This document shows, one piece after another, positions 40,422 through 60,341 of a DNA stretch of 64,000 nucleotides (position 1 is the first letter of the stretch; every line of letters begins with the position of its first letter). The translations under genes and the position numbers were made by a program. Under the pieces are notes generated by a model, which had not been told where the DNA came from, ran no database searches, and saw only the letters and a program-made list of their open reading frames with translations. The DNA comes from Microbacterium lacticum (GTDB taxonomy: Bacteria > Actinomycetota > Actinomycetes > Actinomycetales > Microbacteriaceae): NCBI RefSeq assembly GCF_006716815.1, contig NZ_VFPS01000001.1, positions 806,001 through 870,000 of the forward strand, in the 5' to 3' direction.

Positions 40422-40509
40422 TCAGAGCCCCGAGACGCGGCTGAGCGCCTGCTCGAACAGGTCGGCGAGAGCCGGCCCGGCGAGGCTCCAGATCGCGACG
40501 ACCAAGCCT
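40422..40509 (-). pseudogene. Pilin-like (Flp/DUF4244-type) gene, 3' half
   Basis: The minus-strand frame reads GLVVAIWSLAGPALADLFEQ and then ALSRVSGL before its stop. It is the C-terminal part of a small pilus-associated membrane protein whose first 36 codons lie at 49,470-49,576. Joining the two at the CCT core restores one frame reading VTLMTAG-LVVAIWSLAG. The gene was cut by integration of element 1. Confidence 0.85.
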
Positions 40510-40530
40510 CCCGACTTCACGCAGTAATCT
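40495..40530. other. attL of element 1
   Basis: The host arm (pilin gene) meets the element arm at the shared core CCT (40507-40509). The element arm GACTTCACGCAGTAATC (40513-40529) is a near-mirror of the attR arm at 49449-49465 (14 of 17 positions as inverted repeat). The TAATCT at 40525-40530 also looks like the -10 box of the integrase gene. Confidence 0.8.
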
Positions 40531-40536
40531 CTTTTC

Positions 40537-42162
40537 ATGAGACGAGCCATTCTTTACCTGCGTCTGTCAGTCACTGATTCCAACGACGGCGTCTCTGACA
40601 GTATCCAGCGTCAGGAGAGCGACTTGCGGGCCTTCGCTGAATCCGAGGGCCTCGATGTAGCGCAGGTGCTGTCCGATGACGGCCTCTCAGGCCGGAAGGC
40701 GCGGGCGAACGCTGATGAAGCCCTTCGGATGCTCGACGCGGGCGAAGCCGACGCGCTCCTGGTGTGGAAGTTGGACCGCTGGACCCGTCAAGGACTCGGC
40801 GCAATCGGACGCCTGGTCGAAGTCCTTGATCGCCACCCAAAGGCCGAGTTCATCGCCCTCCGCGACGGCATCCGCTCCACCCAGCCGAGCTGGCGGCTCA
40901 CCGCAGCCGTGCTCTCCGAAGTAGCGCGCAGCGAAGCCGACAACACCGCGATGCGGGTCTCGGCGGCGATCCGCGACAACCAGCAGAAGGGTCGCTTCAA
41001 AGGCGGAACCGTCCCCTACGGGTATTCCCCAGCGCCTCACCCCTCTGGCCGCGGCCGAACGCTGATTCTCAACCCCGCCGAGGTCGCGACCATCAAGCGC
41101 ATGGCTGATTGGGCGCTCGATGGTCGGCCCATCAATGGCTTGATTGACATCCTCACGAACGAAGGCGTGCCGACCACCCGCTCCCCCTACCGTCTCGCAA
41201 CTCTCCGCGGCGAAGACGCCCACGGGCTCGCTCGGGGTGTCTGGTCCTGGCCAGCCGTCGCCGCGATCCTCACGGGGGACGCTGTGCTCGGTCGGGTCAG
41301 CGTCGGCAGTCCGATCGACGGCACCCGACGCAAGGCTTGGTCACTTGTCCTTGACGAGGCGGGACTGCCGCTGCAAGCGTTTCCGGCGGCTCTCGATGTC
41401 GAGACGTCCGCACGACTCCGCGACCGGATCAAGTCATCCAAGATTCCGAGTGGCAAGCCGCGCCGAGTCCCGCGAAAAGCGCGACTGCTCAGCGGCTTGC
41501 TGTGGTGCGGGGTGTGTGGAAAGAAGCTCTGGGTGACAGTCCGCTCGGGTCGCTCGACCTACACATGTTCTCGCAAGGCGGGCGGGACATGCCCCGCACC
41601 GAATATGACTGCCGAACTCGCCGAACGCGCAATCACAGATACATTCCTCGCGGAGCGCGGACACTGGCCAGAGGCCGTCCTCGAAGAAAGCGTGCACCGA
41701 CCGGAGCATGTAGACGAGCTGGCCCGCGTCCAGGCTGCGATCGACCAGACCGCGGCCCAGATGACCCACGACGACGCCGACGTGGCCCGACTCGCAACCG
41801 AGCTCCAGACGCTCAAAGGGCGGCGGACGGAGCTCCAGGCGGCTCCTGTGACCATCGAGCGTCGGTGGATACCTACGGGCCGCACGATTGCAGAGGCGTG
41901 GGCAGACGGCGATGACCACACCAAACGCGGTCTGCTCGAACGCTTCGGCCTTGATCGCATCGACCTCCTGCCAACGGAGACGCGGGGAAGCAACGTCTTC
42001 CAGCCTGAGCGGCTGGTGCCTCACTGGATCGACGTCGATGACCCCGACGCCCCAGACTCACTCGGTCGAGGTCTCCTGATCCCGCGCCTCAGCGCGCCCG
42101 TGAAGCCTCCGCGCGACTACTATTCACGCCCTCCGGGTGACGCCTCCCACACAGCTGGGTGA
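40537..42162 (+). CDS. Large serine recombinase (integrase of element 1)
   Basis: A 541-residue large serine integrase. The resolvase domain has the nucleophile Ser11 in LYLRLSVTD, then VLSDDGLSGRKARAN and LLVWKLDRWTRQGLG. The recombinase domain has GTVPYGYSPAP. A zinc-ribbon follows (LLWCGVCGKKLWVTVRSG ... YTCSRKAGGTCPAP), then a C-terminal coiled coil. The start lies six bases after TAATCT inside the att arm, so the mRNA is probably leaderless. It sits at the left end next to attL, as expected. Confidence 0.95.
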   Translation: MRRAILYLRLSVTDSNDGVSDSIQRQESDLRAFAESEGLDVAQVLSDDGLSGRKARANADEALRMLDAGEADALLVWKLDRWTRQGLGAIGRLVEVLDRHPKAEFIALRDGIRSTQPSWRLTAAVLSEVARSEADNTAMRVSAAIRDNQQKGRFKGGTVPYGYSPAPHPSGRGRTLILNPAEVATIKRMADWALDGRPINGLIDILTNEGVPTTRSPYRLATLRGEDAHGLARGVWSWPAVAAILTGDAVLGRVSVGSPIDGTRRKAWSLVLDEAGLPLQAFPAALDVETSARLRDRIKSSKIPSGKPRRVPRKARLLSGLLWCGVCGKKLWVTVRSGRSTYTCSRKAGGTCPAPNMTAELAERAITDTFLAERGHWPEAVLEESVHRPEHVDELARVQAAIDQTAAQMTHDDADVARLATELQTLKGRRTELQAAPVTIERRWIPTGRTIAEAWADGDDHTKRGLLERFGLDRIDLLPTETRGSNVFQPERLVPHWIDVDDPDAPDSLGRGLLIPRLSAPVKPPRDYYSRPPGDASHTAG

Positions 42163-42255
42163 CACCTTCAAAATCAAAGGTGTCACCCGAAGGTGTCACC
42201 CGGCTTTGGCCAGTGTTTCCAAGGCATCGGGGCACTGGGTGACACGGGTGACGCC
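42135..42255. repeat. Iteron-like cluster of GGGTGACRCC
   Basis: Six copies of a 10-mer near GGGTGACRCC: plus strand at 42135, 42157, 42237 (last base differs) and 42246; minus strand at 42179 and 42192. The copies at 42157 and 42179 form a hairpin with 12-bp arms (GGGTGACACCTT) and an 8-base AT-rich loop. The cluster begins in the last codons of the integrase gene and lies upstream of orf155 and the ATPase gene. It could be a replication origin, operator or terminator. The rest of the gap to 42,550 is an untranslated leader with a GCTATAGT element (42371-42378). Confidence 0.75.
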
Positions 42256-42550
42256 TTCGGGAGCATCTTTCACTATGTCCGCCCCTCCCTGACGCTGGCT
42301 TCCGGCGCCATTGCTACCTATGCGTTTCCCCTGAAGCATGCGCCCACGCCGCCCATAGCCCAGGCCGCACGCTATAGTCATCAATCGTTCCTGCGGGAAC
42401 CGGGGCTGCCGCCCGTCACACGGCAGACGAACCACGAGACTCCACTGCTGGCGCGATCCTTCGATTCACGCGCCGTCCGGCCGTCCTGGCCACCGCTGAC
42501 CACGGTCAGTCCATCTCCCTCGGCGCACCTCGCGCAGATCGGAGTCTCGC

Positions 42551-43018
42551 ATGTCTGCGAACCTTCTCATCCCTCGTCCCTACCTCGCGATCCAGCAGGT
42601 CACCGTCGAACCGGACGGCACTCGCTCCGCGTTCGTTCGCGTCCACACGCGCTCCGGCGGCGTCATCATCAAGAAGCTGCCCGCGGGCGAGAACCACCAG
42701 CCGCTCCTGCCCTTCCTCCAGAACGCGCATCTGCTCCTGCCGAAGAGCTACCAGCATTACCGACTGGTCTGGGGCACCGGCGCTGGCCTGGTCCCCACGA
42801 CCTACACGCTGCGTCACGACTCCCGCGACGAGGGGGTGACAAACGACCACCTGCTGAGCTCCGACTTCGAAGACCTTTGGGGCGCCGACAACGGGCCCGA
42901 CTTCCTCGACGCGCGCGGCTCAGCGATCCCCCGCGACGAGGTTGACCTCATCGGCGTCTACCCTGAGCTGTTCCTCACGAACGACGAAGCCGCGTTCCTC
43001 CGCGACGGTGGACAGTGA
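42551..43018 (+). CDS. Unknown protein, orf155 of element 1
   Basis: A 155-residue protein starting MSANLLIPRPYLAIQQVTVE, mixed alpha/beta in character, with GVIIKKLPAGEN and HYRLVWGTGAGLVPTTYTLR. No domain is recognised. A GGAG site precedes the ATG. The stop overlaps the start of the ATPase gene, so the two are co-translated and the protein may help replication initiation. Confidence 0.7.
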   Translation: MSANLLIPRPYLAIQQVTVEPDGTRSAFVRVHTRSGGVIIKKLPAGENHQPLLPFLQNAHLLLPKSYQHYRLVWGTGAGLVPTTYTLRHDSRDEGVTNDHLLSSDFEDLWGADNGPDFLDARGSAIPRDEVDLIGVYPELFLTNDEAAFLRDGGQ

Positions 43019-44604
43019 GCAACCGCTACGACGCCTTCAACCGGATCGCACCCGACTACGACTTCAGGCGCACCACGGAGGGCGCCTATGTCATCATCCC
43101 TGCTGATCCGGCAGTCCCCCACGTCGCCGAGTCCGTGGACTACCTCATCCCGGAGTGGCAAGAACGCCTCGCAGCAGAAGGCTCGGACACGTTCGGCCAG
43201 GCCCAGGTCGTCTACGACATGGCGAGGGCCTACGCCCGGAAGGTCACCCAGTACCAGGAGCGCGTGCCGCTCGTAACGCGCGTCAACCAGTACACCGGCG
43301 ACGACGGTATCCCTCGCGTCCTCATCGACCTGGGCGACCGCTTGACCGGCTTCGTCGTACAGGTCGGACCCGCTGGCTGGTATGTCCACGACCCGCGCAC
43401 AGAGGGCGGCCTGTTCGACTGGACGCCGGTGTGGCACCGCGAAGCGAACTTCCAGCCTCTTCCGCTCCCCGACGAGTCCCCCGACCGGGTGCCCGGCGAG
43501 GCCAAGGCCTGGTTCCGCGAAATGCTTGCCCTCTCCGATCGCGACTGGCATCTGGTGTGGCTGTGGCTGATGAGCGTCTACTTCCCGCACTGGACGCAGC
43601 AGGGCCTCATGTTCGTGGCCTCATCGCAGATGGGAAAGTCCCTGCGGAGTGCATGGCTGCTCAGCTTCCTGCATCCGGCTGACCCGACCCTCGGCGGTAT
43701 CGGCGGCGACTTCCCTACGACCGAACGGGGCTGGGGCAGCCTCATGCACACGTCCCCGATTCTGGCGTTCGATGACGTCGAGTCCATCTCACCGTCGCAG
43801 CACCAAGCCATGAAGCAGGTCATCACCGGTGCGGCGTTCCGCACCCAGACCCTCTACGAGACACGGGGCACGACGACCACCACGGGCAAGCGCCCCCTGC
43901 TCATCACCGCGTCCGGGACCCCTGCGGGCTTCCGCGACGACCTCCGCAACCGCATCTGGACGGTCTCACCGACCCGCCCGCCGCTGGGCCGCGACCTGGA
44001 CGCCGAGTTCAAGCGGATGGCCCCGGCGATCTTCGCCGACCTTCTCGATGACCTGGTGATCGCTCTCAAGGGCTTCCCCGATGGCCTGGCTGAGATGGAT
44101 GCTTTGATCGCTGCGGGCCAGCCGGTGCGTCCCCGTGAAATCCGCGCCCTCGCGCGCTCGCTCGATCAGGCGACCGGCGCTCAGTACGAAACCGCGATGC
44201 TCGAAGAGCGCCAAGACACTCTGCAAGCCGCGGCAGAAGAAGACCGCTTCGCCCGCGTGGTCTACGAGTTCGTCAAGGCACACCCGGCAGGCGGCGAGCT
44301 CTCGAACGACGACCTGCTCAGCGAGCTCCGCGGAACCGCACTCGGCATGTTCGACTTCGAATCAGCCGGTGCCCTCGACCGGGCGCAGTGGTTCCCTCAG
44401 GACACCGGGCGCATGGGATCGTGGCTCGGTCGAAAGGCCGACAGCCTCGCATCGGTCGGCGTCGTCTTCCACGCCCGTCGTGGCGCCAAGGGCATACGAC
44501 TCCGGTCCTGGGACCCACTTCCCGGCGTCCCCGAACCCCAGCCGATCATCACCGTCAACGTTCACCCTGCCGAAGGCTCACACGCGCAGGAGGCATTCTC
44601 ATGA
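43015..44604 (+). CDS. P-loop ATPase, helicase/primase-like replication protein
   Basis: A 529-residue protein. The N-terminal ~160 residues are unclassified. Walker A is GLMFVASSQMGKSLRS (A202-S209) and Walker B is PILAFDDVES (D253, D254); a sensor-like LLITASGTPAGFRDDLRNRI (arginine-finger type) follows. The order resembles the SF3/D5-type helicase ATPases of phages, plasmids and satellites. A C-terminal segment after residue 430 could bind DNA. It is the only replication candidate in the element. GTG start at 43015. Confidence 0.7.
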   Translation: MSNRYDAFNRIAPDYDFRRTTEGAYVIIPADPAVPHVAESVDYLIPEWQERLAAEGSDTFGQAQVVYDMARAYARKVTQYQERVPLVTRVNQYTGDDGIPRVLIDLGDRLTGFVVQVGPAGWYVHDPRTEGGLFDWTPVWHREANFQPLPLPDESPDRVPGEAKAWFREMLALSDRDWHLVWLWLMSVYFPHWTQQGLMFVASSQMGKSLRSAWLLSFLHPADPTLGGIGGDFPTTERGWGSLMHTSPILAFDDVESISPSQHQAMKQVITGAAFRTQTLYETRGTTTTTGKRPLLITASGTPAGFRDDLRNRIWTVSPTRPPLGRDLDAEFKRMAPAIFADLLDDLVIALKGFPDGLAEMDALIAAGQPVRPREIRALARSLDQATGAQYETAMLEERQDTLQAAAEEDRFARVVYEFVKAHPAGGELSNDDLLSELRGTALGMFDFESAGALDRAQWFPQDTGRMGSWLGRKADSLASVGVVFHARRGAKGIRLRSWDPLPGVPEPQPIITVNVHPAEGSHAQEAFS

Positions 44605-44885
44605 CTCGATTCAACCGTCCGACCGCTGACGCCGACTTCGCCCGGGAACTGCGCGCTGCTGGCCTGGCGCAGCTCCGCGGAGCACTCTTCTACGACAACG
44701 AGCAAGCCGCCATGTTCTCGGACGCCGAGACCATCGCGCTCGCCAAGCTCCACTTCGAACAGCGCAGCGGCCTGTCGGCGGCCCTGGAGCTCAACAACTG
44801 GCTCGACGTGTCAACCGCCGCGCTCACGCTGCACGAACTCCAACAGGGTCTCCAGAAGCTGGACCACGCCGACATGCTCGCCTGA
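44601..44885 (+). CDS. Unknown protein, orf94 of element 1
   Basis: A 94-residue, mostly helical, acidic protein (MTRFNRPTADADFARELRAA...). It overlaps the ATPase stop by four bases. There is no recognised domain. The following 280 bp to the capsid gene hold no gene; a GCTATAGATC element at 44913-44922 matches one at 42371-42378 and may be a promoter. Confidence 0.65.
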   Translation: MTRFNRPTADADFARELRAAGLAQLRGALFYDNEQAAMFSDAETIALAKLHFEQRSGLSAALELNNWLDVSTAALTLHELQQGLQKLDHADMLA

Positions 44886-45165
44886 CTCAGGCGTGCCCGT
44901 CCCCCCGAAGACGCTATAGATCGGTAGGGAGAGGATGCGCTGCCCAAACGTGCACCCCGCCCCACTCCGCCGCTGACCGACCGACGCGCGCGCCTACAGG
45001 AGTAGGGCCGCCCGGACGATCGACCAGCCAGCCGACACATCGGCGCAGACAGTACCGCGAGGCCCAGGAGGGCAGACGGTGCCGAGCCGATGCTGCGCGG
45101 TCCGTTGGGAGGCACTTCCGCGCCAGCTAGGCGCATCAAGTGACTACCCCCCATTGGAGTCAACC

Positions 45166-46293
45166 ATGGACCCTAAGTCCGAACTCAAGACCATCCAGGC
45201 ACGGATGGCAGTCATCGTCGACGGCTACAAGTCGGGCGGCAACCTCTCCGACGAGCAGGCGACCGAGCTCCAGGAGCTCAACGACCGCGCGACCGAACTG
45301 AAGGCCGCGATTCTGCGCGCTGAGAAGTCGGCCGAGAACATGCGCGCCGTCGCCGGCGAGCCCATCGACCACGAGGGCGACCGCAGCATCCCCGGCGCAA
45401 AGGGCTACCTGGACTTCTCGCCGGCCCGCGTGAAGTCGCTGGCCAAGTCCATCGCCAACCCCGGCATCAAGGCGCTCATCGCGGGCGGCTCGTCGGGCAC
45501 CGCGGTCCCGCTCGACCCCAAGCCGGTCCCGCTCGGCCTCACCGGCCCGAACGCCGGCTTCCTGTCGCTGTTCAAGACGGTGCAGCGCACGACCCCGTCG
45601 TACAAGTTCCTCCAGCAGACGGTGCGAACGAACAACGCGGCTGTCGTGGCTCCGGGCGCACTCAAGCCCACGTCGGTCTACTCGGCCGTCGAGGTCACGA
45701 ACTCGCTGAAGGTCATCGCTCATCTCTCCGAGATGGTGGACCGCTTCCTCCTCGAGGACAATGACGAGCTCGAGTCGTTCCTCGCGACAGAGCTCGGTAA
45801 CGGCGTCATCCGCAAGGCTGAGGCCGAGGCGATCAGCACCATCCTGGGCACGTCGGGCATCCTGACCTACGCCACTTCCGCGAGCTACACGCCGGCCAAG
45901 GGATTCGACGGCATCTTCTCCGGCATGGCGAAGCTCGCGACCGTCGGCGGCTACACGGCTGACCTCGTGGTCATCAACTCGTCGGACTACGAGACCCTGC
46001 GTCTCGCGAAGAACGGCGAGAACGACTACTACGGCGGCGGCCCCTTCACGGGGGGCCCGAACCCCGGCCTGTGGGGAGTGACGACCTTCGTCACGTCCGG
46101 CATCGCCGCGGGCACGGCCCTGGTGCTGGACACCGACACGGTCCAGATCAGCACCGACACCAAGGGCATCCGCACCGACGTGGACGCCGCGACTGGCTTC
46201 GACAAGAACCAGGTCCGGTTCCGCACGGAAGGCCGCTTCGCCACGGACGTGAAGCAGCCCACGGGCATCCTCAAGGTCACCCTCACGGCGTGA
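45166..46293 (+). CDS. HK97-family major capsid protein
   Basis: A 375-residue capsid protein. An N-terminal helical segment (residues 1-70, ERARELKAAI-like coiled coil, here ELNDRATELKAAILRAEKSA) resembles the scaffold/delta domain. The HK97 fold follows: E-loop/P-domain region (NSLKVIAHLSEMVDRFLLED), ATELGNGVIRKAEAEAISTI, DLVVINSSDYETLRLAKNGE and the closing FRTEGRFATDVKQPTGILKV. An ATTGGAGT site precedes the ATG. No protease or portal gene is adjacent, which is unusual for this family. Confidence 0.92.
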   Translation: MDPKSELKTIQARMAVIVDGYKSGGNLSDEQATELQELNDRATELKAAILRAEKSAENMRAVAGEPIDHEGDRSIPGAKGYLDFSPARVKSLAKSIANPGIKALIAGGSSGTAVPLDPKPVPLGLTGPNAGFLSLFKTVQRTTPSYKFLQQTVRTNNAAVVAPGALKPTSVYSAVEVTNSLKVIAHLSEMVDRFLLEDNDELESFLATELGNGVIRKAEAEAISTILGTSGILTYATSASYTPAKGFDGIFSGMAKLATVGGYTADLVVINSSDYETLRLAKNGENDYYGGGPFTGGPNPGLWGVTTFVTSGIAAGTALVLDTDTVQISTDTKGIRTDVDAATGFDKNQVRFRTEGRFATDVKQPTGILKVTLTA

Positions 46294-46326
46294 CCTCACA
46301 GCTCCGCGAGTAGCTAACTCGCCGGG

Positions 46327-46395
46327 CCGGCATCCTTCATCGGGTGCCGGTCCACGCAGCTCTGCGCGTCCTTACTTCGGGTTCGACGCGCAGAG
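46327..46395. terminator. Two stem-loops after the capsid gene
   Basis: The first is CCGGCATCC / GGGTGCCGG (46327-46335 with 46342-46350, one G-U pair). The second is CTCTGCGCGTC / GACGCGCAGAG (46360-46370 with 46385-46395, perfect 11 bp). Both follow the capsid stop within about 100 bp and have no T-run. Confidence 0.5.
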
Positions 46396-46494
46396 TCTCA
46401 GCAGCCCTCTCCTTTCGGGCGTGGCTGAGCGCTGATGCGGAGTGATAGCCCGACGATCAGACCTGCTGGGGCGTAGGACACCCGCGAGCAGGAT

Positions 46495-46583
46495 CACTGT
46501 GCCGGCCTCGCCCGTCGAGGTCTCCTGCCTGCGCAGCCTGACCCGCTACGCAGTAACCCCTCCGGGCGCGGGCCGGCACAGTG
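46495..46583. other. Long inverted repeat in non-coding region
   Basis: Arms CACTGTGCCGGCC (46495-46507) and GGCCGGCACAGTG (46571-46583) are perfectly complementary over 13 bp. An inner pair CGCCCG / CGGGCG (46509-46514, 46563-46568) extends the stem. The enclosed 48 bases contain a further CTGCGCAG / CTACGCAG pair. It lies in the 474-bp gene-free stretch between the capsid gene and orf104. It could be a structured RNA, a packaging (cos/pac-like) site or an operator; the sequence does not decide. Confidence 0.6.
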
Positions 46584-46767
46584 TGACCCCAGCTCCCTGC
46601 GACCCAGCCCCCGGGTAGGCGCCTCGCATCCTGCGGTGGCTCGCCCCACGGCTCAATCCCCGGCAATGGTCTCAATGTGTGCGATCCGTTTTGAATCCAG
46701 AACGGACCGGGCCACCAGGATCAAGCACAGATCATCCCTCCCGCCCCTGCGCCAGGAAGGCCTCATC

Positions 46768-47082
46768 ATGACTCTCCGCGACGACCTCGAAACCGTCATC
46801 TCTTCTGACCCCGTAATGGCCGAAGACCGCATGGCGGGCATCATCAGTCTGGCGCGCGCGGTCGCCGACCAGGCCGACGCCCAGCTCAGCAACACGGGCG
46901 CACTCGAAAGCCGGATCATCGCCAGCTACGGCGGCATGCTCGCCCAGATCAACCGCACGATCCGCGATGACCGCGACCGGCGACGCCGTACCGAGGCGAA
47001 GACCGCGGGCAAGGCATCCCGCCTTTCGCTCATCCGACAGCAGGCCGCTGAGGCGACGAAGGTGCGGGAGGAGGCCTGGTGA
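46768..47082 (+). CDS. Unknown helical protein, orf104 of element 1
   Basis: A 104-residue protein, largely alpha-helical with a basic C-terminal half (RTIRDDRDRRRRTEAKTAGK). An AGGAAGG site precedes the ATG. The basic tail suggests nucleic-acid binding; terminase-small-subunit or head-completion roles are possible but not supported by a motif. It overlaps the next gene by four bases. Confidence 0.65.
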   Translation: MTLRDDLETVISSDPVMAEDRMAGIISLARAVADQADAQLSNTGALESRIIASYGGMLAQINRTIRDDRDRRRRTEAKTAGKASRLSLIRQQAAEATKVREEAW

Positions 47083-47291
47083 CCGGCCCCGCTCTGATCC
47101 GCTGTACCCGCTGCCGCCGCGAGCTACCCGAAGACGCCTACGGCAACCACGCTGGCCGCCGCGAAGGCAGAAACAACGAGTGCAAGGACTGCGCCCGCAC
47201 ACGTCGGCTGGCCTACCGCCACACCGACGTGGGCCGCGCCAAGCACAACGCCGCCAACAAGCGCGCTCGCGAACGCCGCTCAGCGGCCTGA
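47079..47291 (+). CDS. Small zinc-motif protein
   Basis: A 70-residue basic protein with two CxxC pairs: RCTRCRRELPEDAYG and ECKDCARTRRLAYR. The pattern resembles the zinc knuckle of small phage HNH/endonuclease VII-like proteins, but the catalytic His region is not obvious. It overlaps orf104 by four bases and is followed by a strong terminator. Confidence 0.7.
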   Translation: MTGPALIRCTRCRRELPEDAYGNHAGRREGRNNECKDCARTRRLAYRHTDVGRAKHNAANKRARERRSAA

Positions 47292-47298
47292 CTGACCA

Positions 47299-47341
47299 CC
47301 CCGTGGGGCTTGATATCGAGCCTGGCCCCACGGGGGTTTTT
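47299..47341 (+). terminator. Rho-independent terminator
   Basis: Arms CCCCGTGGGGC and GCCCCACGGGG (perfect 11 bp, 15-base loop) followed by GTTTTTCTTC. It is the clearest intrinsic terminator in the window and closes the rightward capsid-to-zinc-protein transcript. Confidence 0.85.
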
Positions 47342-47388
47342 CTTCGGCTCACTCCGCGCGCCCACGCGCCCCTTCGAAAGGAAACACC

Positions 47389-47565
47389 TTGTCCGCACTC
47401 GCCCACCTGCCCACCAGCATCAAGGCGCTGGAGACGCTTCTCCTGACTTCCCCGAACCCTGAGACCGCTGACCTCATCCGCGAACGCATCAACGAGCGTC
47501 GGATGCACAACCGGCGTAGCCGTGCGAAGCGTCAGGCCCGCCTTGACGAAGCGCGCGCTGAGTGA
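47389..47565 (+). CDS. Small protein, orf58 of element 1
   Basis: A 58-residue open frame from TTG 47389, preceded by an AAAGGAAA ribosome site seven bases away: SALAHLPTSIKALETLLLTS, then a basic tail (RRMHNRRSRAKRQARLDEAR). No family is recognised. It sits just beyond the terminator, convergent with the HNH gene. Confidence 0.55.
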   Translation: MSALAHLPTSIKALETLLLTSPNPETADLIRERINERRMHNRRSRAKRQARLDEARAE

Positions 47566-47573
47566 GCAAGCCT

Positions 47574-48140
47574 TCAGTCGCCGTACTTCGTCCGCAGCCA
47601 CTCGTAGACGGCTTTCTGGTCATCCAGACCAGCACGCCTCACCTGAGCCAGCAGCCAGATCGCTGACGGCTTCTCAGTCGTGACGTTCTTCGCGCCCTGA
47701 TTGCACGTCGAGCACAGGGCGCGAAGATTCGACAGCTCATCCTTGCCACCGTAGATCTTGTCCACGATGTGCCCGAGGTGCAGCCGCACCTTCCGGCCTG
47801 TGTCGGGGTCAATCTCACCCGCGGCCTTCCCGCACATCTGACAGGTGGAGCCGTCGCGGTCCAGGACCTCCGCGCGGAGCTTCTGCGAGATGCCCCGCAC
47901 GAACGCCGCATCTGGCTTCTCCGGCGGGTCTGCCATCAACATGTACTCACCAGGCTTCAGGTCCTGCGTGTCGTTGTTGGTGTAGATCAGCCAGCCCTCT
48001 TGCTCGCGCAACTCGCGAACGCGTCGAGCCCATTCACCGACTGGCGCAACAAGCTGCGCGAGCTCTTTACCCTTGACTACTTCACCCTGGTGCTCACGGA
48101 AGTATGCCCTGAGCTTCGCTTTTGCGCTCGTGCTTGCCAC
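47574..48140 (-). CDS. HNH restriction endonuclease with winged-helix N-terminus
   Basis: A 188-residue protein. Residues ~1-75 form a winged-helix-like DNA-binding region (GELAQLVAPVGEWARRVREL type). The C-terminal HNH domain is VLDRDGSTCQMCGKAAGEID, then LHLGHIVDKIYGGKDELSNL and ALCSTCNQ, with two CxxC pairs and the HIVDK...N...C core. It ends a C5 methyltransferase-HNH pair (10-bp gap), the arrangement of a type II restriction-modification system. The recognition site is unknown. Confidence 0.85.
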   Translation of the reverse strand: MASTSAKAKLRAYFREHQGEVVKGKELAQLVAPVGEWARRVRELREQEGWLIYTNNDTQDLKPGEYMLMADPPEKPDAAFVRGISQKLRAEVLDRDGSTCQMCGKAAGEIDPDTGRKVRLHLGHIVDKIYGGKDELSNLRALCSTCNQGAKNVTTEKPSAIWLLAQVRRAGLDDQKAVYEWLRTKYGD

Positions 48141-48150
48141 GCCCCCGAGT

Positions 48151-48858
48151 CTAGGCGGCGCGCTCAGACTCCCGCGCGACGCCGCGCAGCGACCCCTGCT
48201 TGACGGCGCGCATCAGGAAGCCGCCAAGGTACTCGGTGTAGGCGGGCGGGATCGACTCGTTGAGCTCTCGCTTGTTCATCCAGTCGATGCCGAGTGCATC
48301 CTTCGCGTTGGCGATCGAACTGTTGCCCCCGCCCGTCACCTGCACGAACGACTTGTTCTGATCCAGCTTCCCGTAGTGGGCCTTACGCTTGTCGTGCGTG
48401 AACACCAGCGGGTGCTTGCCGTGCTCCGGCGCATCAAGCTCAATGTTCGACTCGAACAAGCGGTGCCGGATCACCCGCAGACCGGGGAACATGGTCCCGC
48501 ACAGCACAGTCGGGTTGAGCAGCGGGGCACCTTCGACGTTCTCGATGATGTACGGCACACCCAGGCCGTCCAGCATCTCGCGCACGGGTTCGATCAGGCG
48601 CGGCCATGCATCGGCGTTCCCGTTTCGCTTTGCAAGGTCGGAGTACGACTGACACGGCGGCGATGCATGGATCGCGTCAAACGACGCCAAGAACTCAGGA
48701 TCGAGGGTCAGCGCATCGTGCTGAATGAACTCGAACGGGTAGCGCGGCTGAGGGTCGATATCGACGCCGACAACCTCGAACCCCGCGCGGTGATAGCCCA
48801 TTCCGGCCCCGCCGGCGCAGCTGAACAGGTCTAGGAGGCGGGGCTTCTGGGAAGGCAT
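48151..48858 (-). CDS. C5-cytosine DNA methyltransferase, short form
   Basis: A 235-residue methyltransferase, short for the family. Motif I is LLDLFSCAGGAGMGY, motif IV has Cys69 in IHASPPCQSYSDLAK and motif VI is YIIENVEGAPL. The target-recognition region is small, and the C-terminus has NKRELNESIPPAYTEYLG (motif X-like). It presumably protects DNA from the adjacent HNH nuclease. Confidence 0.9.
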   Translation of the reverse strand: MPSQKPRLLDLFSCAGGAGMGYHRAGFEVVGVDIDPQPRYPFEFIQHDALTLDPEFLASFDAIHASPPCQSYSDLAKRNGNADAWPRLIEPVREMLDGLGVPYIIENVEGAPLLNPTVLCGTMFPGLRVIRHRLFESNIELDAPEHGKHPLVFTHDKRKAHYGKLDQNKSFVQVTGGGNSSIANAKDALGIDWMNKRELNESIPPAYTEYLGGFLMRAVKQGSLRGVARESERAA

Positions 48859-49090
48859 GCCGTCACATTACCGAAGGGTCCCGACGTTGCTGGACAGAAC
48901 GCGCCGACCCCGGGCGGAACCCTAGGAACTCTGTTCTCCAGTCGTCCTGTGAGCTCTCCGATCACCCTAGGTAGCCGAGGGCACTCCCCCTCAAAACGGA
49001 GTGACCCACGGAGCCCAGAACGACGATGAGAACGCCTCAACGACAGAGACCCCTGAGGAAACCTCCCCAGGGGCCTTCTCCCACCGCGAC

Positions 49091-49339
49091 TCATGCGGTC
49101 TTCTGGGCAGCTTCGTACATCGCAAGCGCCGCGGTGATCTTCGCCTTGCGCTTCTCGTTCGACGCCTTGCTCTGCGCGGCGCGCACGGCCTTGGCGTGGG
49201 CTCGCTTGATCCCTCGCGCCTGGTCAATCAGCTCGTCGACCCGGGCGAGGGTGTGCATCAGGTCCTCGCCGCTCTGGTCCATGCTCTCCGCAAGAATCGC
49301 GTCGAGGGCCTTGCTGGTGGTGGTGAAGTTCTTGTCCAT
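49091..49339 (-). CDS. Unknown helical protein, orf82 of element 1
   Basis: An 82-residue, lysine- and alanine-rich helical protein (KRAHAKAVRAAQSKASNEKR) preceded by a GGAGGA site. It is the last gene before attR and reads inward. A TAATCT at the attR arm (minus strand, 49454-49449) may drive it from ~110 bp upstream. A stem CCCCTG...CAGGGG at about 49,051-49,076 lies beyond its stop; nothing else is seen in 48,859-49,090. Confidence 0.65.
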   Translation of the reverse strand: MDKNFTTTSKALDAILAESMDQSGEDLMHTLARVDELIDQARGIKRAHAKAVRAAQSKASNEKRKAKITAALAMYEAAQKTA

Positions 49340-49447
49340 GATCTGTCCTCCGTGCTGGTGATTGGGTGTTGCTTGCTGTCATCGACATTGCCGCGACCTC
49401 GACCACCTCGGAGCGCCGGGCGCCTCACCCCAGCGGCACTCCCGGAC

Positions 49448-49485
49448 AGATTACTGCCGTAAGTCCGCACCTGCGGTCATCAGCG
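49448..49485. other. attR of element 1
   Basis: The element arm AGATTACTGCCGTAAGTC (49448-49465) meets the host pilin gene at core CCT (49470-49472). Together with the attL arm it rebuilds an attP with two 18-bp arms around a 10-bp centre (15 of 18 positions as inverted repeat). Confidence 0.8.
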
Positions 49486-49576
49486 TCACGAGAACCCAGC
49501 CGGGCACGTCGCCGCGGTCGTCGTCGATCGTGTTCGTGAGGGAGGCGCGGAGCCGTCCCCATACCGTGCGGATCAT
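49470..49576 (-). pseudogene. Pilin-like (Flp/DUF4244-type) gene, 5' half
   Basis: It starts MIRTVWGRLRASLTNTIDDD behind a GGAAGGAGG site and reads RGDVPGWVLVTLMTAG up to the core. Past the junction the frame runs into the element and stops at 49451 (ADLRQ). The other half lies at 40,422-40,509. The DDDRGDVPGWVLVTLMTAG pattern fits the short pilus proteins found between tadC and tadE in actinobacteria. Confidence 0.85.
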
Positions 49577-49602: not shown

Positions 49603-49705
49603 TCATGAGATTCCGAGCTTGAGCATGACGATCCCCGGGAAGACGGCGAACAGCACCGACAGCGGGAGGATCAGGAAGACGAGCGGGAGGAGCGCGCCTG
49701 CTCGG
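49603..49705 (-). pseudogene. tadC-like gene, 3' end
   Basis: The frame ALLPLVFLILPLSVLFAVFP followed by GIVMLKLGIS matches the last TM helix and tail of type II/IV secretion F-domain (TadC) proteins. It ends just before the pilin-like gene, as in tad operons. Upstream of about 49,705 the sequence becomes integrase DNA of element 2, and the rest of tadC is not in the window. Confidence 0.75.
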
Positions 49706-51296
49706 ATGGCTTGCGGTCTGACACCTCCGCGGGCAAGAACATGGACGGGTCGAGCACCCCGTGAATGGTGATCGCCTGCGGTCGCCCGTCCACGATGTCC
49801 GACACGATCACGCGCACGTCGAGGAGTTCGACCACCTCGCGACGGATGGCGGCGCTGGCGTTCTCCAACCGACCACGGGCACGCTCCGCGAGCGCCGCCA
49901 CGTCAGTGATCCGCTGGGCCTGCTCGGCGCGGTTCGACCGCATCGCGGCCAGGCCATCCAGACGCTCCCGAAGCTCCGCGAGGTCGCCCCGGAGTCGCTC
50001 GACGGTCGCGCGGTGCTCCGCCGGGTCGTCCGCCATCAGGTACAGATCCTTCGCCCGCCCCATGGCGCGTTCAAGGGTGGCCTCCTGCTTGCGGAGCGCC
50101 GCGACCATCGGGGCCTCGTCGTTCAGGTCCGCGTCGTCGTCCAGTTCGAGCCACTGCCGCGCTAGCCGCTCCAGACGCTCAGGGTCCGCGAGCATCGCCG
50201 CGAGTTCGGCCCACACCGGCTCATCGATCGCCGGTCCCTTGATCTGCGTGCAGGAGCACCGGGGCTGTTCCTTCGAGCGGTAGCGCTTGCCCGCGCAGAT
50301 GTAGAACGGATTGGGTCGGCTCTTGGTCGTCACGCCGTCGTAATGCTTGTCGAACTCGCACTGCCCGAACAGCCGCCCGGTCAGCATCTGCCGCTGAGGA
50401 GCCGAGGGCGTCCACCCCGCGCGGCGGTTGACAGCGCGTTGGAGCGCCTGCCACTCCTGCCGCGTGAAAACCGGATTGCCGAGGACGACGCGCACCGTCT
50501 CGCCGTACTTCGGCGATCCGTCGCGGTTCATCTTCGTGACCTTGCGATGCGGGCGGTACGCGCCAGTCATCGCCGCGCCCCACTCCGTCTCGCCAGTCCA
50601 CAACGTCGGGTTCGTCGCGGTCTGCCTCACCGTCTGGTACTGCCATGTAGCGGCCTGGCGCGGGCGGAGCCCCATCAGGTTCAGTCGGTCCGCGACCTCG
50701 GCGGTGCTGAGGCGCTCCTTCACGAACAGCGAGTACATCGCGCGGAGCACCTCGCGTTCGCGCTCGTCGCGCACCGGGCGCGCCTCCCGCTTCAGCCCTT
50801 CGAGCTTCCAGCCGAACGGGGGCTTCGACCCTGCCCATCCCCCGGCGCGACCCTTGGCCCGCTGACCGGCGGCGGTGCGCGCGACGATGGTGTCGCGCTC
50901 CATCTCGGCGAAGCCCGCCATCATCGTGCGCATCATCTTGCCCTGCGGCGTGCTCATGTCGATCTGCTCTTTGACGAGCACCAAGTCGACGCCCATCTCG
51001 GACAGTCGGTCCGTCTCGCGGATGGCGTCCCCGGCTTTGCGGGCGAAGCGGTCGAGCTTTGACACGACCACGGCGTCGATCTTGCCGTCGCGGGCGTCCT
51101 GGAGCATCTGTCGCCATGCGGGGCGCGAGGCGTCCGTGCCCGACAGCCCCTCATCGACGTAGGTGCCGACGAGTTCCCAGCCGCGCATCTTGATCGTCGC
51201 CTCGCAGATTTCCTTCTGCTCGGGCAGTGATGTGTTGTCGACCTGCATGTCGGTGGACACTCGGGCGTAGTAGACGGCCCTGGTCTTCGTGCTCAT
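49671..51296 (-). CDS. Large serine recombinase (integrase of element 2)
   Basis: A 541-residue integrase. The catalytic Ser14 is in VYYARVSTDMQ, followed by DEGLSGTDASRPAWRQML and VVSKLDRFARKAGDAI. The recombinase domain has KPPFGWKLEG. The zinc-ribbon is weak (FGQCEFDK ... FYICAGKRYRSKEQPRCSCT), and a long coiled coil follows. The start at 51296 overlaps the HNH stop. The last ~10 residues (ARSSRSSS) are read from tadC-derived host DNA, so the stop is supplied by the insertion site. Confidence 0.93.
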   Translation of the reverse strand: MSTKTRAVYYARVSTDMQVDNTSLPEQKEICEATIKMRGWELVGTYVDEGLSGTDASRPAWRQMLQDARDGKIDAVVVSKLDRFARKAGDAIRETDRLSEMGVDLVLVKEQIDMSTPQGKMMRTMMAGFAEMERDTIVARTAAGQRAKGRAGGWAGSKPPFGWKLEGLKREARPVRDEREREVLRAMYSLFVKERLSTAEVADRLNLMGLRPRQAATWQYQTVRQTATNPTLWTGETEWGAAMTGAYRPHRKVTKMNRDGSPKYGETVRVVLGNPVFTRQEWQALQRAVNRRAGWTPSAPQRQMLTGRLFGQCEFDKHYDGVTTKSRPNPFYICAGKRYRSKEQPRCSCTQIKGPAIDEPVWAELAAMLADPERLERLARQWLELDDDADLNDEAPMVAALRKQEATLERAMGRAKDLYLMADDPAEHRATVERLRGDLAELRERLDGLAAMRSNRAEQAQRITDVAALAERARGRLENASAAIRREVVELLDVRVIVSDIVDGRPQAITIHGVLDPSMFLPAEVSDRKPSEQARSSRSSS

Positions 51297-51607
51297 CGGC
51301 TCGTCTCCTTCCATGCGAGGTTGTCGGCCCTGTTGTCGGCCTTGATGTCATTGAGGTGCTTCACGGTCGCGCCCTCGGTCGGCGGCTCGCCGTGGAACGC
51401 GCGAGCGACCAGTCGATGCACGGCGAGGGTCTTGCCGCCGCCGGGGCCATAGAGGCGCACGACGGCGCATCCGGTGCTCTGGTTGACGGGCGTCGTCAGG
51501 ACGTAGCCCGCGGGGCGTCCCTGGGTCGCACGCGCGTTGCGGATTCGCCCGAAGTCCGACACGTCGTAGAGCCCTTCGTATCCGGGGATCGGTCGCCATT
51601 CGGTCAT
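51293..51607 (-). CDS. NUMOD4/HNH homing-type endonuclease
   Basis: A 104-residue nuclease with an N-terminal NUMOD4 motif (EWRPIPGYEGLYDVSDFGRI) and an HNH_3 core (VHRLVARAFHGEPPTEGATV, then HLNDIKADNRADNLAW). It overlaps the neighbouring genes by four bases on each side, an unusually tight fit for a selfish nuclease and suggestive of a domesticated role. Confidence 0.88.
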   Translation of the reverse strand: MTEWRPIPGYEGLYDVSDFGRIRNARATQGRPAGYVLTTPVNQSTGCAVVRLYGPGGGKTLAVHRLVARAFHGEPPTEGATVKHLNDIKADNRADNLAWKETSR

Positions 51608-51855
51608 GCGAACACCTCCCATCGGTCCTCGCCCGCGATGAGCCCGAGGGTCTGCCCCGAGTCCCACAGAACGTGCACCGTGTCGGCGTCGTCCACGGCC
51701 ACGACTGTGCCCGTCGCGCCAGGTCGGAGGTCGGTGTGGGGGTCGGTTGTCTCCGCGAGCCGCACACGCTCGCCGACGCGCGCCACGGGGCCGATGGCCA
51801 CGCACGACTCGCCGGGATGCGGGTGGCCGGGCACGCACCCGATGTCGCCGGTCAT
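51604..51855 (-). CDS. DUF4314 protein
   Basis: An 83-residue protein with the DUF4314 pattern GERVRLAETTDPHTDLRPGA, then VHVLWDSGQTLGLIAGEDRW. Such SH3-like beta domains are frequent in actinophages and integrative elements; no function is established. Overlaps by four bases with the WhiB-like and HNH genes. Confidence 0.8.
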   Translation of the reverse strand: MTGDIGCVPGHPHPGESCVAIGPVARVGERVRLAETTDPHTDLRPGATGTVVAVDDADTVHVLWDSGQTLGLIAGEDRWEVFA

Positions 51856-52562
51856 GCGGCCACTTCCTCGGCGTCGGCCTTCGCCTCGGGTGCGGGCTTC
51901 GGGGCGGTCGCACGGGCGGCGGCGCGCTCGAACTTCGCGCGGAGGGCGTCGGACGGGAGCGACTTTGCGAGCTTTGCGATCCCGGCCTTCGTGAGGCTGT
52001 CGGCCACCACTACCGCGACGAGGTTCGAGATCATCTTGGCGTCATGCCCGGCGCAGAAGGTCGCGCGGGTGGCTCCGCCGCATCCGCAGAGGCAGGCGTT
52101 GAGGTTGGTGGCCTTGGCGTTCATTGGGGTATCCGATCTGAGTAGGGTTCCGGGGGCTCCTGCCCCCAATTCCCATTCAAATGTATGTAAATAATCGGGC
52201 ACAATATTCGGTCTGATCCGGCTTTTCCCGAGCCGTTGAAGCGCTCGCACCTGCGCCTTCTCGCGCTCAATCGACCGGCGGCGTTCTTCACTGCTCGGGC
52301 CGAAGAGCTTGCCGCCCCAAATGCCTGCGAGCGCCCCCGCCGTCTCGGCATATGCGCGGCATTGCGTCGCGAGCGGGCACGACCCGCACCGCTCGGCGGC
52401 GACATCTTGAAGCACGACATCTTCAGAGGTCCACGCCTCCGCGCCAGGACCGACACACGGAATCTCGATGCCGTCGTCCATTGAGGCACGCACGCGCTCG
52501 ATCAGCTCCGCGTAGGCAGTTGCAGGATCGTGCGGGCGGAGAGCCATAAGCGGGGCGGACAT
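51852..52562 (-). CDS. WhiB-like protein with C-terminal cysteine motif
   Basis: A 236-residue protein. The WhiB domain holds four cysteines (C36, C59, C62, C68) and GIWGG at 80-84, expected to bind a [4Fe-4S] cluster and contact sigma factor. Beyond it comes a second cluster, NACLCGCGGATRATFCAGHD, that may bind zinc, and a basic/Ala-rich tail. ATG 52562 follows a GGAGGT site; the GTG one codon earlier, or GTG 52682 overlapping the upstream stop, are alternatives. Confidence 0.85.
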   Translation of the reverse strand: MSAPLMALRPHDPATAYAELIERVRASMDDGIEIPCVGPGAEAWTSEDVVLQDVAAERCGSCPLATQCRAYAETAGALAGIWGGKLFGPSSEERRRSIEREKAQVRALQRLGKSRIRPNIVPDYLHTFEWELGAGAPGTLLRSDTPMNAKATNLNACLCGCGGATRATFCAGHDAKMISNLVAVVVADSLTKAGIAKLAKSLPSDALRAKFERAAARATAPKPAPEAKADAEEVAA

Positions 52563-52678
52563 CACGATTGGAAACCTCCGGGTCGAGGAAGAATCGCGAG
52601 TGGCGCGGCCCTCCCGCGCGGAGTCAACCAGCCGCAGACGCGCGCCGATCTGCTCCACGTCGAGAGGGCCGCGACGAA

Positions 52679-53062
52679 TCACGCGACGGCCTCCACGGCG
52701 TCATCGACCAGACCAGCGCGCCGGAACTGCTCGGCCCGGATCCAGTCGAGGATCACTTGGTGGTGCGACTCCTTGAGCCACAACATCCCGTTGACGTATT
52801 CGACGGGTCCGGCGATCCCGGCGACGCGCCCGAGGTCGTATAGCACCGACGCCGAGGCGTAGATGTCGGCGTGCTCGGTCGATGCTCCGTCAGCGGTCAT
52901 GCGGGCCTTCCGCATCGAGATGATCTCGGCGAGCGGGAGCGGCCCGCACACGAGCCATGCGGCGACCTCGGGGGCGCGCTTTGCGTCCTTCGTGTCGTCG
53001 ATGAGCCACTCCATGAGGCGGTCGTCGGTGTTGTCGATCAGGATTTGCATAGTGCTAGTCAT
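52679..53062 (-). CDS. Unknown phage-type protein (127 residues)
   Basis: An acidic, helical protein, MTSTMQILIDNTDDRLMEWL..., with the phrase AEIISMRKARMTADGASTEH. It is not recognised. It lies in the minus-strand early gene run between the zinc-motif genes and the WhiB-like gene. Confidence 0.65.
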   Translation of the reverse strand: MTSTMQILIDNTDDRLMEWLIDDTKDAKRAPEVAAWLVCGPLPLAEIISMRKARMTADGASTEHADIYASASVLYDLGRVAGIAGPVEYVNGMLWLKESHHQVILDWIRAEQFRRAGLVDDAVEAVA

Positions 53063-53149
53063 GATGGGTGCCCTCCTGGGCTGGTTACTTTGAATGGGTG
53101 TTGAAAGCAGGGTCGCGCGGCGGCGAGCGCCCCCGGCCAGCGCGCGCGA

Positions 53150-53410
53150 TCACCGCGTCACGCCGCATCTCGCGAGTGCGACCTTCGCGTCGATGTACGC
53201 CGACCACGCCACCGAAGCCGCCTCGCGGCGAACGCGACAGCGCTCCCCCCACTCGGCCAGCGGCAGGCACGCGAGCGGATGATCGCTATGCACGAGGTCC
53301 GGATGATGCGCCTCGACTCGGATCAGCGCATCACGCGCCGTCTTGTAATCCAGCCGCGCGCGCTGATACTCACGCTTTGCGACCTGACGTGCGATCTCGT
53401 TCTCGGTCAT
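53150..53410 (-). CDS. Unknown helical protein (86 residues)
   Basis: A basic helical protein, MTENEIARQVAKREYQRARL..., ending VALARCGVTR. Its ATG overlaps the stop of the zinc-motif gene by four bases. No family is recognised. Confidence 0.65.
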   Translation of the reverse strand: MTENEIARQVAKREYQRARLDYKTARDALIRVEAHHPDLVHSDHPLACLPLAEWGERCRVRREAASVAWSAYIDAKVALARCGVTR

Positions 53411-53841
53411 GGTGTTGTCTCCTCGGCGTTGTGGGTGGTTTCTCGCAGGGACGGTCGTCCCGGCGCTGGCTGTGCGGCCTCCGCGAATCGAAAGCGTCGG
53501 CGGGCCATCTCGCGGTGCGCATGACACAGGCCGTTCGCCGATGCGGTGCGCTTACAGGCGGCGACCCAGCAGATCGCCTCGGGCGACCTCACTGCCGGAG
53601 CGTTCACGACGGCATCGGGATGCTCGGCGACCCAGACCGCCATCGACCCCGACTCGCGGAGCGCACGCACCCGCAGGTTGTCGTAGTGCGTGTGGCAGAG
53701 CCCGAGTGAGAACGCGGTGCGCGAGCACGCCGTCACGATGCATCGCGGGTGAGGCCGGGCGACGACGGGCCACGTCCTCACGACCGCGACATGCGGCGCG
53801 AGCCACGACGGGACCGTGAACTTCGGAACCTTGGCGCTCAT
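53407..53841 (-). CDS. Protein with two tandem Cys3His motifs
   Basis: A 144-residue protein. The same pattern C-x4-C-x9-C-x2-H occurs twice: C34, C39, C49, H52 (CIVTACSRTAFSLGLCHTHY) and C91, C96, C106, H109 (CWVAACKRTASANGLCHAHR). This looks like an internal duplication of a zinc-binding unit, as in some phage DNA-binding proteins. It overlaps both neighbours. Confidence 0.75.
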   Translation of the reverse strand: MSAKVPKFTVPSWLAPHVAVVRTWPVVARPHPRCIVTACSRTAFSLGLCHTHYDNLRVRALRESGSMAVWVAEHPDAVVNAPAVRSPEAICWVAACKRTASANGLCHAHREMARRRFRFAEAAQPAPGRPSLRETTHNAEETTP

Positions 53842-54068
53842 GACTGCGCCTCCCCCGAGGTGAGGTCACACGGGCGCGCGAGGGTCAGCCAGACAGGGTG
53901 TAGGTTTCGCGTTCGGCGTCGTGAGCGGCGGCTCATCTCCGCCTCGCGTGTACTACTGAACTGGCGGAGATGATGGAAATACGTCTGTTCTCGGGGTTTC
54001 TTCTTTCCGTTATTTCCTTCATTTTGTAACGGGGAGTAGCGGAAATGGGGCACGGAAATCGGTACCAT
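53838..54068 (-). CDS. Small protein over an AT-rich repeat region
   Basis: A 76-residue frame, MVPISVPHFRYSPLQNEGNN..., with a basic middle (KKKPREQ, RRSRRRTRN). Its ATG overlaps the stop of the primase gene (TGATG) and its end overlaps the next start, which supports translation. However, the DNA is unusually AT-rich and repeat-bearing, so this could be a non-coding origin with a chance frame. Confidence 0.5.
   Translation of the reverse strand: MVPISVPHFRYSPLQNEGNNGKKKPREQTYFHHLRQFSSTREAEMSRRSRRRTRNLHPVWLTLARPCDLTSGEAQS
53974..54058. repeat. AT-rich GGAAAT repeats beside the primase gene, possible origin
   Basis: GGAAAT occurs at 53974, 54040 and 54053 and inverted (ATTTCC) at 54011. CCGTTA (54006-54011) and TAACGG (54026-54031) form a small inverted repeat around an AT-rich loop. 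The stretch is far more AT-rich than the window average and lies directly downstream of the primase-helicase gene, a common place for an origin. Confidence 0.5.
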
Positions 54069-56281: not shown

Positions 56282-56418
56282 CGTCCGCCCCCGATCGTCA
56301 GGGCGAACACGAAGCCGTACCCGATGTAGGCGAGGAGCCCTGTGACCGTGACGGTCGCCCAGAAGATGTCATCGTGACCGACGCGCGAGCGGCGACGGCG
56401 ATGCGTTGAGGTGCTCAC
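56278..56418 (-). CDS. Small membrane protein (46 residues)
   Basis: GTG start at 56418. The basic N-terminus STSTHRRRRSRVGHDD is followed by one TM helix, FWATVTVTGLLAYIGYGFVF, ending TIGGGR. It overlaps the primase start by four bases and the preceding gene's stop likewise, so it is in a coupled operon. Function unknown. Confidence 0.65.
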   Translation of the reverse strand: MSTSTHRRRRSRVGHDDIFWATVTVTGLLAYIGYGFVFALTIGGGR

Positions 56419-56543
56419 GCGGCGCTCACCGCCTCATCGGGGGCGTCAGTGAACGTCGGCGCGAAAAGGATCTCGCAGAGTCGTCGAACATCCTCGGCGG
56501 GAAGCGGGCGAGCTTCCCAATGGACAGTGGATCGGTTGAGCAC
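56415..56543 (-). CDS. Small protein (42 residues), first gene of replication operon
   Basis: GTG start at 56543 behind a GGAGGT site: VLNRSTVHWEARPLPAEDVR, then LCEILFAPTFTDAPDEAVSA. It overlaps the small membrane protein by four bases. No family is recognised; size and place suggest an early regulatory peptide. Confidence 0.55.
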   Translation of the reverse strand: MLNRSTVHWEARPLPAEDVRRLCEILFAPTFTDAPDEAVSAA

Positions 56544-57916: not shown

Positions 57917-57968
57917 GGCCTCAGATTAGCGGGCGGTTTGCATGCGGAACGCCCGTTCCTCATTGCAA

Positions 57969-59033: not shown

Positions 59034-59051
59034 CCCTCCGTGCCCATGACT

Positions 59052-60179: not shown

Positions 60180-60341
60180 GGGGTTTGGCCTCTCGGTCGG
60201 GGATTGCAGATCGCGTTTAGTTCAGGCTAGATAGTCCACTAATGGGGAGCGTGGATTGGTTACCGCGTGTTGCAGGGTTTCTTTCGAAAGCATCGCACGC
60301 ATGTTCGAACTCGGACCAGCGCGGGTGTGTAGCCTAACGGG

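Follow-up and report, generated by a model that had tools for sequence, protein, structure and literature searches.

We analyzed a 64,000-nucleotide stretch of the Microbacterium lacticum genome (contig NZ_VFPS01000001.1, positions 806,001 to 870,000; hereafter the window) and in particular an island at window positions 40507-49472. The island is very probably a cos-packaged phage satellite of the Microbacteriaceae that carries its own small terminase subunit (TerS) and capsid protein, would borrow the large terminase subunit (TerL), portal, protease and tail of a helper, and would work much like the staphylococcal pathogenicity island (SaPI) SaPIbov5. An earlier note on this DNA had proposed a minimal satellite that redirects helper packaging to its own capsid, and this idea is supported, at the level of sequence, by a helper-type cos site, a TerS homologue and a recurrent family of islands. 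The cos-type site is an addition to the earlier note, which had missed it.

Island boundaries and a recurrent gene set

The island of about 8,966 bp is integrated in a Flp-pilin-like gene, the reading frame of which it splits, within a tad-type locus (named by eye). The pilin peptide obtained by joining the sequence across the island had matches in 16 of 20 genomes, the own genome included. It was uninterrupted in 15 of the 19 others and had no match in the remaining four. In the own genome, which contains a single copy of the island, the same peptide is split at the island edges into residues 1-37 and residues 33-63, and the positions of the two fragments agree with the island ends 40507 and 49472 to about 10 bp. 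The ends that had been set earlier from the interrupted host gene were therefore borne out. The window island is an integrated element with its own integrase and a defined host junction. The features on which the argument depends are the following.

49466-49576, minus strand: 5' fragment of the pilin gene, residues 1-37 (split pilin peptide match)
40425-40517, minus strand: 3' fragment of the pilin gene, residues 33-63 (split pilin peptide match)
40537-42162, plus strand: large serine integrase (PF00239, Pfam Resolvase 7e-24; PF13408; phrog_95)
42551-43018, plus strand: 155-aa protein, function unassigned by searches, adjoining the ATPase gene upstream in all three islands
43015-44604, plus strand: ATPase, probably an SF3/AAA+-type replication helicase (Walker-type motifs by eye, conservation)
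45166-46293, plus strand: HK97-fold major capsid protein (PF05065 1.5e-20; TIGR01554 2.5e-19)
46600-46690, plus strand: cos-type site, base 46665 corresponding to the right end of phage genomes
46768-47082, plus strand: 104-aa protein, by profile-profile comparison a divergent TerS homologue, first gene past cos in the window
47079-47291, plus strand: 70-aa zinc protein with four Cys, resembling the N-terminal part of endonuclease-VII families
49091-49339, minus strand: 82-aa protein kept in all three islands (68% and 41% identity to its relatives)

The earlier note had suggested a search with the ATPase and capsid pair for islands of 8-10 kb with the same gene order, and a search with the ATPase led to two relatives of the same size with a shared core. 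One lies in a Microbacterium metagenome-assembled genome (L002; the identical locus is present in G472) and the other in another genus of the family (genome G127, locus L005). At E<=0.001, and with the own genome included, ATPase matches were found in 2 of 150 family genomes and in 2 of 366 genus genomes; a three-row ATPase alignment had matches in 8 of 396 genomes of the order and in 6 of 398 of the family (the family, genus and order samples overlap). Ten weaker ATPase-relative loci, beyond the own genome and G127, did not contain this gene set as judged from gene calls by eye. Some of them were cut by contig ends and several resembled integrative elements of other kinds.

All three islands share, in this order, the genes for the 155-aa protein, the ATPase, the capsid protein, a 101-104-aa protein, the zinc protein and, on the opposite strand, the 82-aa protein. 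A serine integrase is also common to all three; its gene is the leftmost in the window island and the rightmost in L002 and L005. Identities to the window proteins are 39% (L002) and 35% (L005) for the integrase, 63% and 53% for the 155-aa protein and 67% and 44% for the ATPase. Reading of the flanks placed the L005 insertion inside a comM/Mg-chelatase-like gene and the L002 insertion at the stop codon of a proline-dehydrogenase-like gene; in L002 an 8-bp repeat is present at 6239 and 15150. The same core order at three sites is more than chance. The lengths (8,966 bp in the window, about 8.9 kb in L002, about 8.8 kb in L005) are nearly equal despite accessory differences, namely an HNH/methylase gene pair of about 1.3 kb in the window and other small genes in L002 and L005. 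For these two loci, shared genes were scanned by alignment and seven accessory proteins by Pfam, leaving out the L002 call at 12688-12969. Genes for portal, TerL, protease and tail were not recognized in any of the three islands; the window island is without a complete virion gene set, and the two relatives found are not the full-length prophages that would have spoken against the satellite proposed earlier.

The cos-type site and the small terminase homologue

The cos site was found by comparing noncoding DNA of the islands with the genome ends of the phages that have the nearest capsid proteins. In all three islands it is on the same strand as the capsid gene and 3' of it. In the window, the sequence up to base 46665 corresponds to the right end of the phage genomes and the sequence beyond it to the left end. 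A weight matrix was built exclusively from six phages, Microbacterium phages AvGardian, Dismas and Arroyo (genus Dismasvirus) and Curtobacterium phages CliffHanger, Teagster and Buldak, and from no island. Buldak and Arroyo diverge right of the nick, and the six do not constitute six independent samples because some are close relatives. With this matrix, the site was the top position in each of the three islands (scores 28.3, 21.1 and 17.6), and the runner-up position in any island scored 1.5. In 600 Markov shuffles the highest score was 13.9, and the best background score was 12.3 in 100 kb of the own chromosome plus 137 kb of other loci (about 237 kb).

Upon blastn comparison of 96 bases around the window site with 50,697 phage records, 35 records matched, 33 from Microbacterium and two from Gordonia phages. 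Among the 25 matches listed (14 phages by name, several of them twice), all end at the last base of the record and the alignment stops at query base 71, that is, window base 46665; the genomes measure 40.9-42.2 kb. The L002 site matched five records, the best being the AvGardian genome end, twice (6e-3), while the other three were unrelated and weak. With a control stretch from the window island, 15 records matched, including three from Microbacterium among the rows beyond the best six; the six listed were weak, lay inside a Mycobacterium phage terminase gene and were in no case located at record ends. A degenerate pattern was derived from seven sites, four of phages and three of islands. It occurs once in the window, was absent from 100 shuffles and matches only the two island genomes among 361 genus genomes (reversed control: none). 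These two matches follow by construction, and the informative part is the absent background. By these comparisons, the island packaging signal is shared with Dismasvirus-type (about 41-kb Microbacterium) phages, in the case of L005 as judged by the matrix only.

Past the site, a profile of three island proteins was compared with a profile of six phage proteins. Four of the latter are annotated as TerS, and those of AvGardian and Arroyo are annotated as hypothetical yet align as TerS. The two profiles aligned over 97 of 104 columns with 25% identity (score 33.8, E 1.5e-5, probability 79.5); 200 column shuffles scored 19.0 or less and the 82-aa family, a further control, scored 14.6. TerS is encoded by the first or second protein gene past cos in four of the six phages, and the TerS-aligning protein comes second in AvGardian and third in Arroyo. 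In L002 and L005 one other small gene lies between cos and the counterpart of the 104-aa protein, in the window none. This evidence identifies the 104-aa protein as a divergent homologue of TerS. The earlier claim that a portal, terminase, protease, tail, lysis or repressor gene is missing holds for all but one part: neither these genes nor a large terminase were recognized, but "no terminase" is too strong because 46768-47082 encodes this TerS homologue. The window protein shares just 16-22% identity with the phage proteins in the multiple alignment, and the C-terminal tail is best kept, a pattern that a retained contact with TerL together with an altered contact with DNA would be expected to leave.

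The capsid protein, the proposed life cycle and competing readings

The island capsid proteins are 41-53% identical among themselves, their reading frame is open in all three copies and they form one clade with 99/99 support in a tree of 25 rows. This tree comprises nine phages chosen from 476 records that matched, 12 viral-contig loci out of 34, the locus L025 from another family of the order and the three islands; several of its branches are long, including that of L002, which limits the placement of the island clade among the phages. A nine-residue gap is common to all three island proteins and is present in none of the 22 other rows, one of which (L025) aligns poorly. Each island protein starts with a delta domain of about 102-116 residues that closes with a G-x-K-A-L junction. 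This junction resembles HK97-type maturation sites, and cleavage of the window protein is predicted after K102. As no protease gene was recognized in the island, a helper protease would be needed. Identity of the window capsid to those of the six cos-donor phages is 32-35%. Among viral contigs, a single-sequence capsid search detected no relative, and a search with the capsid alignment gave 34 loci at 24-32% identity.

The proposed cycle would begin with infection by a helper phage, upon which the island would be excised and replicated with its own ATPase. Helper TerL, together with the helper HNH nuclease and guided by the island TerS, would then cut the island cos, and one unit of about 9 kb would be packaged from there. 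Linearized at cos, the window island reads TerS, zinc protein, cargo, 82-aa protein, attachment site, integrase, 155-aa protein, ATPase, 94-aa protein, capsid, cos. The island capsid protein, matured by the helper protease, would enter the shell either alone or mixed with helper protein like Ccm, the capsid homologue of SaPIbov5, and the smaller head would then receive the portal, connector and tail of the helper. The exact role of the capsid protein is the least certain step. If a T=7 shell holds 41.5 kb, a T=3 shell would by volume hold about 11.6 kb, so a 9-kb unit would fit, which is an argument from arithmetic and not evidence. A bolder version, which we offer as conceivable and somewhat doubtful, sees an independent actinobacterial lineage that converged on the combination of cos and capsid, in which the nine-residue-short capsid protein builds or templates an approximately T=3 head for one genome and Dismasvirus-type phages, maybe virulent, serve as helpers. 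The annotation of the whole AvGardian record lists no integrase or repressor and does list a 'recombination directionality factor'.

Several points weigh against a cos-packaged satellite with its own capsid. Mobilization by a helper is a proposal made from the sequence, and with three members found the element is rare. The blastn E-values of the window cos site are modest, ranging from 2e-3 (best) to 0.9 among the matches listed, and the L005 site matched eight records, none of them from Microbacterium, and was seen by the matrix only. Viral contigs contained no relative of the ATPase or the 155-aa protein and no exact match to the degenerate cos pattern; hence there is no sign of packaged copies in these virus sequence sets. 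The low identities of capsid (32-35%) and TerS (25%) imply that the actual helper may be some relative of the phages named here. The island capsid gene is the only PF05065 match in its own genome, so that no helper of this capsid type is resident there (in 14 control genomes, the same search had matches in four named species, none of them Mycobacterium). Finally, no repressor was recognized in the island.

The alternative that survives best, although we regard it as unlikely, is a cos-packaged satellite with a dispensable capsid gene. Several copies would be packaged per full-size helper head, and the capsid protein would interfere with the helper or be a passenger. According to the passages of PMC10111431 covered, the capsid gene is present in 21 of 29 reference elements of gram-negative phage-inducible chromosomal islands (PICIs) and reportedly dispensable for transfer, and an E. 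coli model PICI is packaged as phage-length concatemers. By arithmetic, four island units of together 35.9 kb would roughly fill a 41.5-kb head. The state of the gene itself argues otherwise, since it is open in three diverged copies that all have the nine-residue gap, and the near-constant island length suits a head for one unit.

Decay of a full prophage through loss of portal, large terminase and tail would account for the phage-derived genes and the phage-type cos site, and similar Mycobacterium elements were initially presented, in the part of PMC3986857 covered, as prophage-like elements or as remnants. Such decay is nevertheless very improbable here. The same core genes are kept open across three independent insertions, the capsid proteins form their own clade, and TerL, portal and protease, which in the phages lie between TerS and the capsid gene, were recognized in none of the islands. 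This reading was set aside in view of the recurrence, the capsid clade, the conserved core and the finding of relatives that are islands of the same size. That the island and the terminase-bearing element B next to it (about 49.7-64.2 kb) are complementing partners, the one with a capsid and no recognized TerL, the other with TerL, a TerS-like protein and no recognized capsid, hardly merits credence despite their position side by side in one locus, as the TerL of element B shares 70-71% identity with the TerL of Goodman-type phages, which form a group other than the cos donors, no B-like neighbor was present in the stretches read around L002 and L005, and a portal was recognized in neither element.

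Further features, neighboring elements and known satellites

The remaining island genes are listed here.

44601-44885, plus strand: 94-aa protein, with a 115-aa counterpart in the same place in L002 (matched by eye)
47389-47565, plus strand: 58-aa small protein, the least certain gene (open reading frame only, no gene-finder call, no Pfam match)
47574-48140, minus strand: HNH endonuclease, probable restriction enzyme (PF01844; PADLOC REase_II 3.3e-9)
48151-48858, minus strand: short C5-cytosine methyltransferase (phrog_363 2.6e-46; PADLOC MTase_II 1.9e-11)

The HNH and methylase genes are cargo, as they are present in the window copy only. Among the best 25 of 44 PHROGs matches of the HNH protein, one is named 'terminase small subunit' and aligned via the HNH part. 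Pfam, PHROGs and PADLOC confirmed the serine integrase, HK97 capsid gene and restriction-modification pair reported earlier, and Pfam and PHROGs searches with ten island proteins gave no family for a portal, a large terminase, a protease, a tail or lysis. The description of the ATPase as SF3-like stood in part: Walker- and sensor-type motifs are visible by eye in the alignment, and the protein is probably an SF3/AAA+-type replication helicase, but it had no Pfam or NCBIfam match and its PHROGs match reached only E=0.023. One weak match to the PDB by sequence (E 0.049) and a 25.6% match to the 'DNA helicase/primase' of Microbacterium phage Zeta1847 were obtained. AlphaFold models from two-row alignments had mean pLDDT values of 42.2 for the ATPase and 41.7 for the 155-aa protein. 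Four island proteins, including the 155-aa, 94-aa and 82-aa proteins, had no tblastn match at E<=1 in the 50,697 phage records. The zinc protein was called by the gene finder in L002 and L005 and not in the window, and its identity among the islands is only 29-31%. Directly 3' of its gene, a stem-like inverted repeat with a T-rich run after it (47298-47345, by eye) is likely an intrinsic terminator. A tandem 13-base direct repeat at 42177-42202, in the gap between the integrase and 155-aa genes, is possibly a regulatory or replication site.

Element B is a second serine-integrase element of about 14.5 kb (window positions about 49700-64000, continuing to about 64200) that splits a neighboring tadC-like gene (by eye). 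It encodes a PrimPol-AAA protein, restriction-modification genes (NgoFVII-like, C5 methylase, Vsr-like), a TIR-TM match, the TerL mentioned above and a TerS-like protein with 35% identity over 89 aa to that of Goodman. No capsid or portal was recognized in it, and the genome ends of Goodman- and Jera-type phages gave matches of 11-12 bases only. As a helper prophage it was set aside, because neither capsid nor portal was recognized beside its TerL and TerS-like protein. Element B may represent a second kind of satellite that depends on a different helper. At 539200-553500 of contig 1 of the own genome (L034, L035), a tyrosine-integrase element of about 14 kb resembles a mini-prophage (by eye), with a TerL-like gene, a portal-family match below the family cut-off and short tape-measure-like and tail-like genes. 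Locus L022 (positions 1-8100, from another family of the order) contains a serine-integrase element, cut by the contig end, whose genes include PrimPol-like and TerS-like ones (by eye). It adjoins a fragment of a gene for a tad-type ATPase, and the tad locus may be a repeated target of integration. The tyrosine-integrase element at L025 6889-15100, also from another family of the order, encodes a distant ATPase relative and, by eye, an HK97-like capsid protein and is possibly a further type of capsid-bearing satellite.

SaPIbov5 is the nearest known element in function, likened by its published description. According to the sections of PMC8569155 covered, it contains the cos site of phage phi12, and Ccm is a delta-domain capsid homologue that is cleaved during assembly and, jointly with the phage capsid protein, makes up smaller isometric T=4 shells. 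SaPIbov5 with phi12 thus has a helper cos and a delta-domain capsid homologue and takes the remaining particle from the helper, as proposed for the island (PMC8569155, in part). The island has these traits of cos-type SaPIs, a helper-type cos and a delta-domain capsid homologue without a protease gene. Unlike SaPIbov5, it belongs to another phylum with another helper, has a serine integrase and its own TerS homologue and contains no recognized SaPI-type regulator.

Small integrase and capsid elements of Actinobacteria, some with serine integrases, have been described as prophage-like elements (PMC3986857, as far as covered) and were later termed candidate PICIs, phiRv1 and phiRv2 being among the corresponding elements, with mobilization still to be determined (PMC10654092, in part). 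phiRv1 measures 9.3 kb and phiRv2 10.8 kb, and serine integrases occur in phiRv1 and phiMmcs_2 (parts of PMC10654092 and PMC3986857). The Mycobacterium candidates resemble the island in having an integrase, a capsid gene and in some cases a helicase, and the island falls within the definition of candidate PICIs, an integrase plus a major capsid protein in a phage-like region, in a host other than Mycobacterium (portions of PMC10654092). Some of the Mycobacterium candidates differ by a protease, terminase or portal gene, the likeness being one of description, and the covered text of PMC10654092 and PMC3986857 reports neither a cos match nor a helper match. Capsid-forming PICIs likewise encode their own capsid protein and TerS, but with a whole head set of protease, portal, connectors and both terminase subunits, of which only TerS was recognized in the island; the actinobacterial Streptomyces satellites of Mulch and Flayer (MulchRoom, MiniFlayer) also have their own capsid gene, together with both terminase subunits, portal, scaffold and adapter (PMC10690885, from the parts covered). 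Gram-negative PICIs share the small size, integrase, replication gene and capsid gene and differ by AlpA-type regulation and the reported dispensability of the capsid gene (PMC10111431, in part).

In the open-access literature, searched by title and abstract and with subscription papers and preprints largely outside the search, we recognized no paper on this family and found none joining phiRv1 with phage satellites; the word satellite is absent from the covered text of a survey of prophages in Curtobacterium, a related genus (PMC9862828). To this extent the statement that no described family has such content stands, but capsid-bearing satellites without portal and TerL are already on record, namely SaPIbov5 (PMC8569155), gram-negative PICIs (PMC10111431) and phiRv1-like candidates (PMC10654092, PMC3986857), each as described in the parts of these sources covered.

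The packaging site points to cultured, publicly available phages of Microbacterium foliorum, which makes helper dependence, redirection by TerS and capsid resizing directly testable. The results suggest that helpers can be proposed in a simple way by searching islands for the end sequences of phage genomes, and that the capsid-homologue strategy of a staphylococcal satellite arose elsewhere too.

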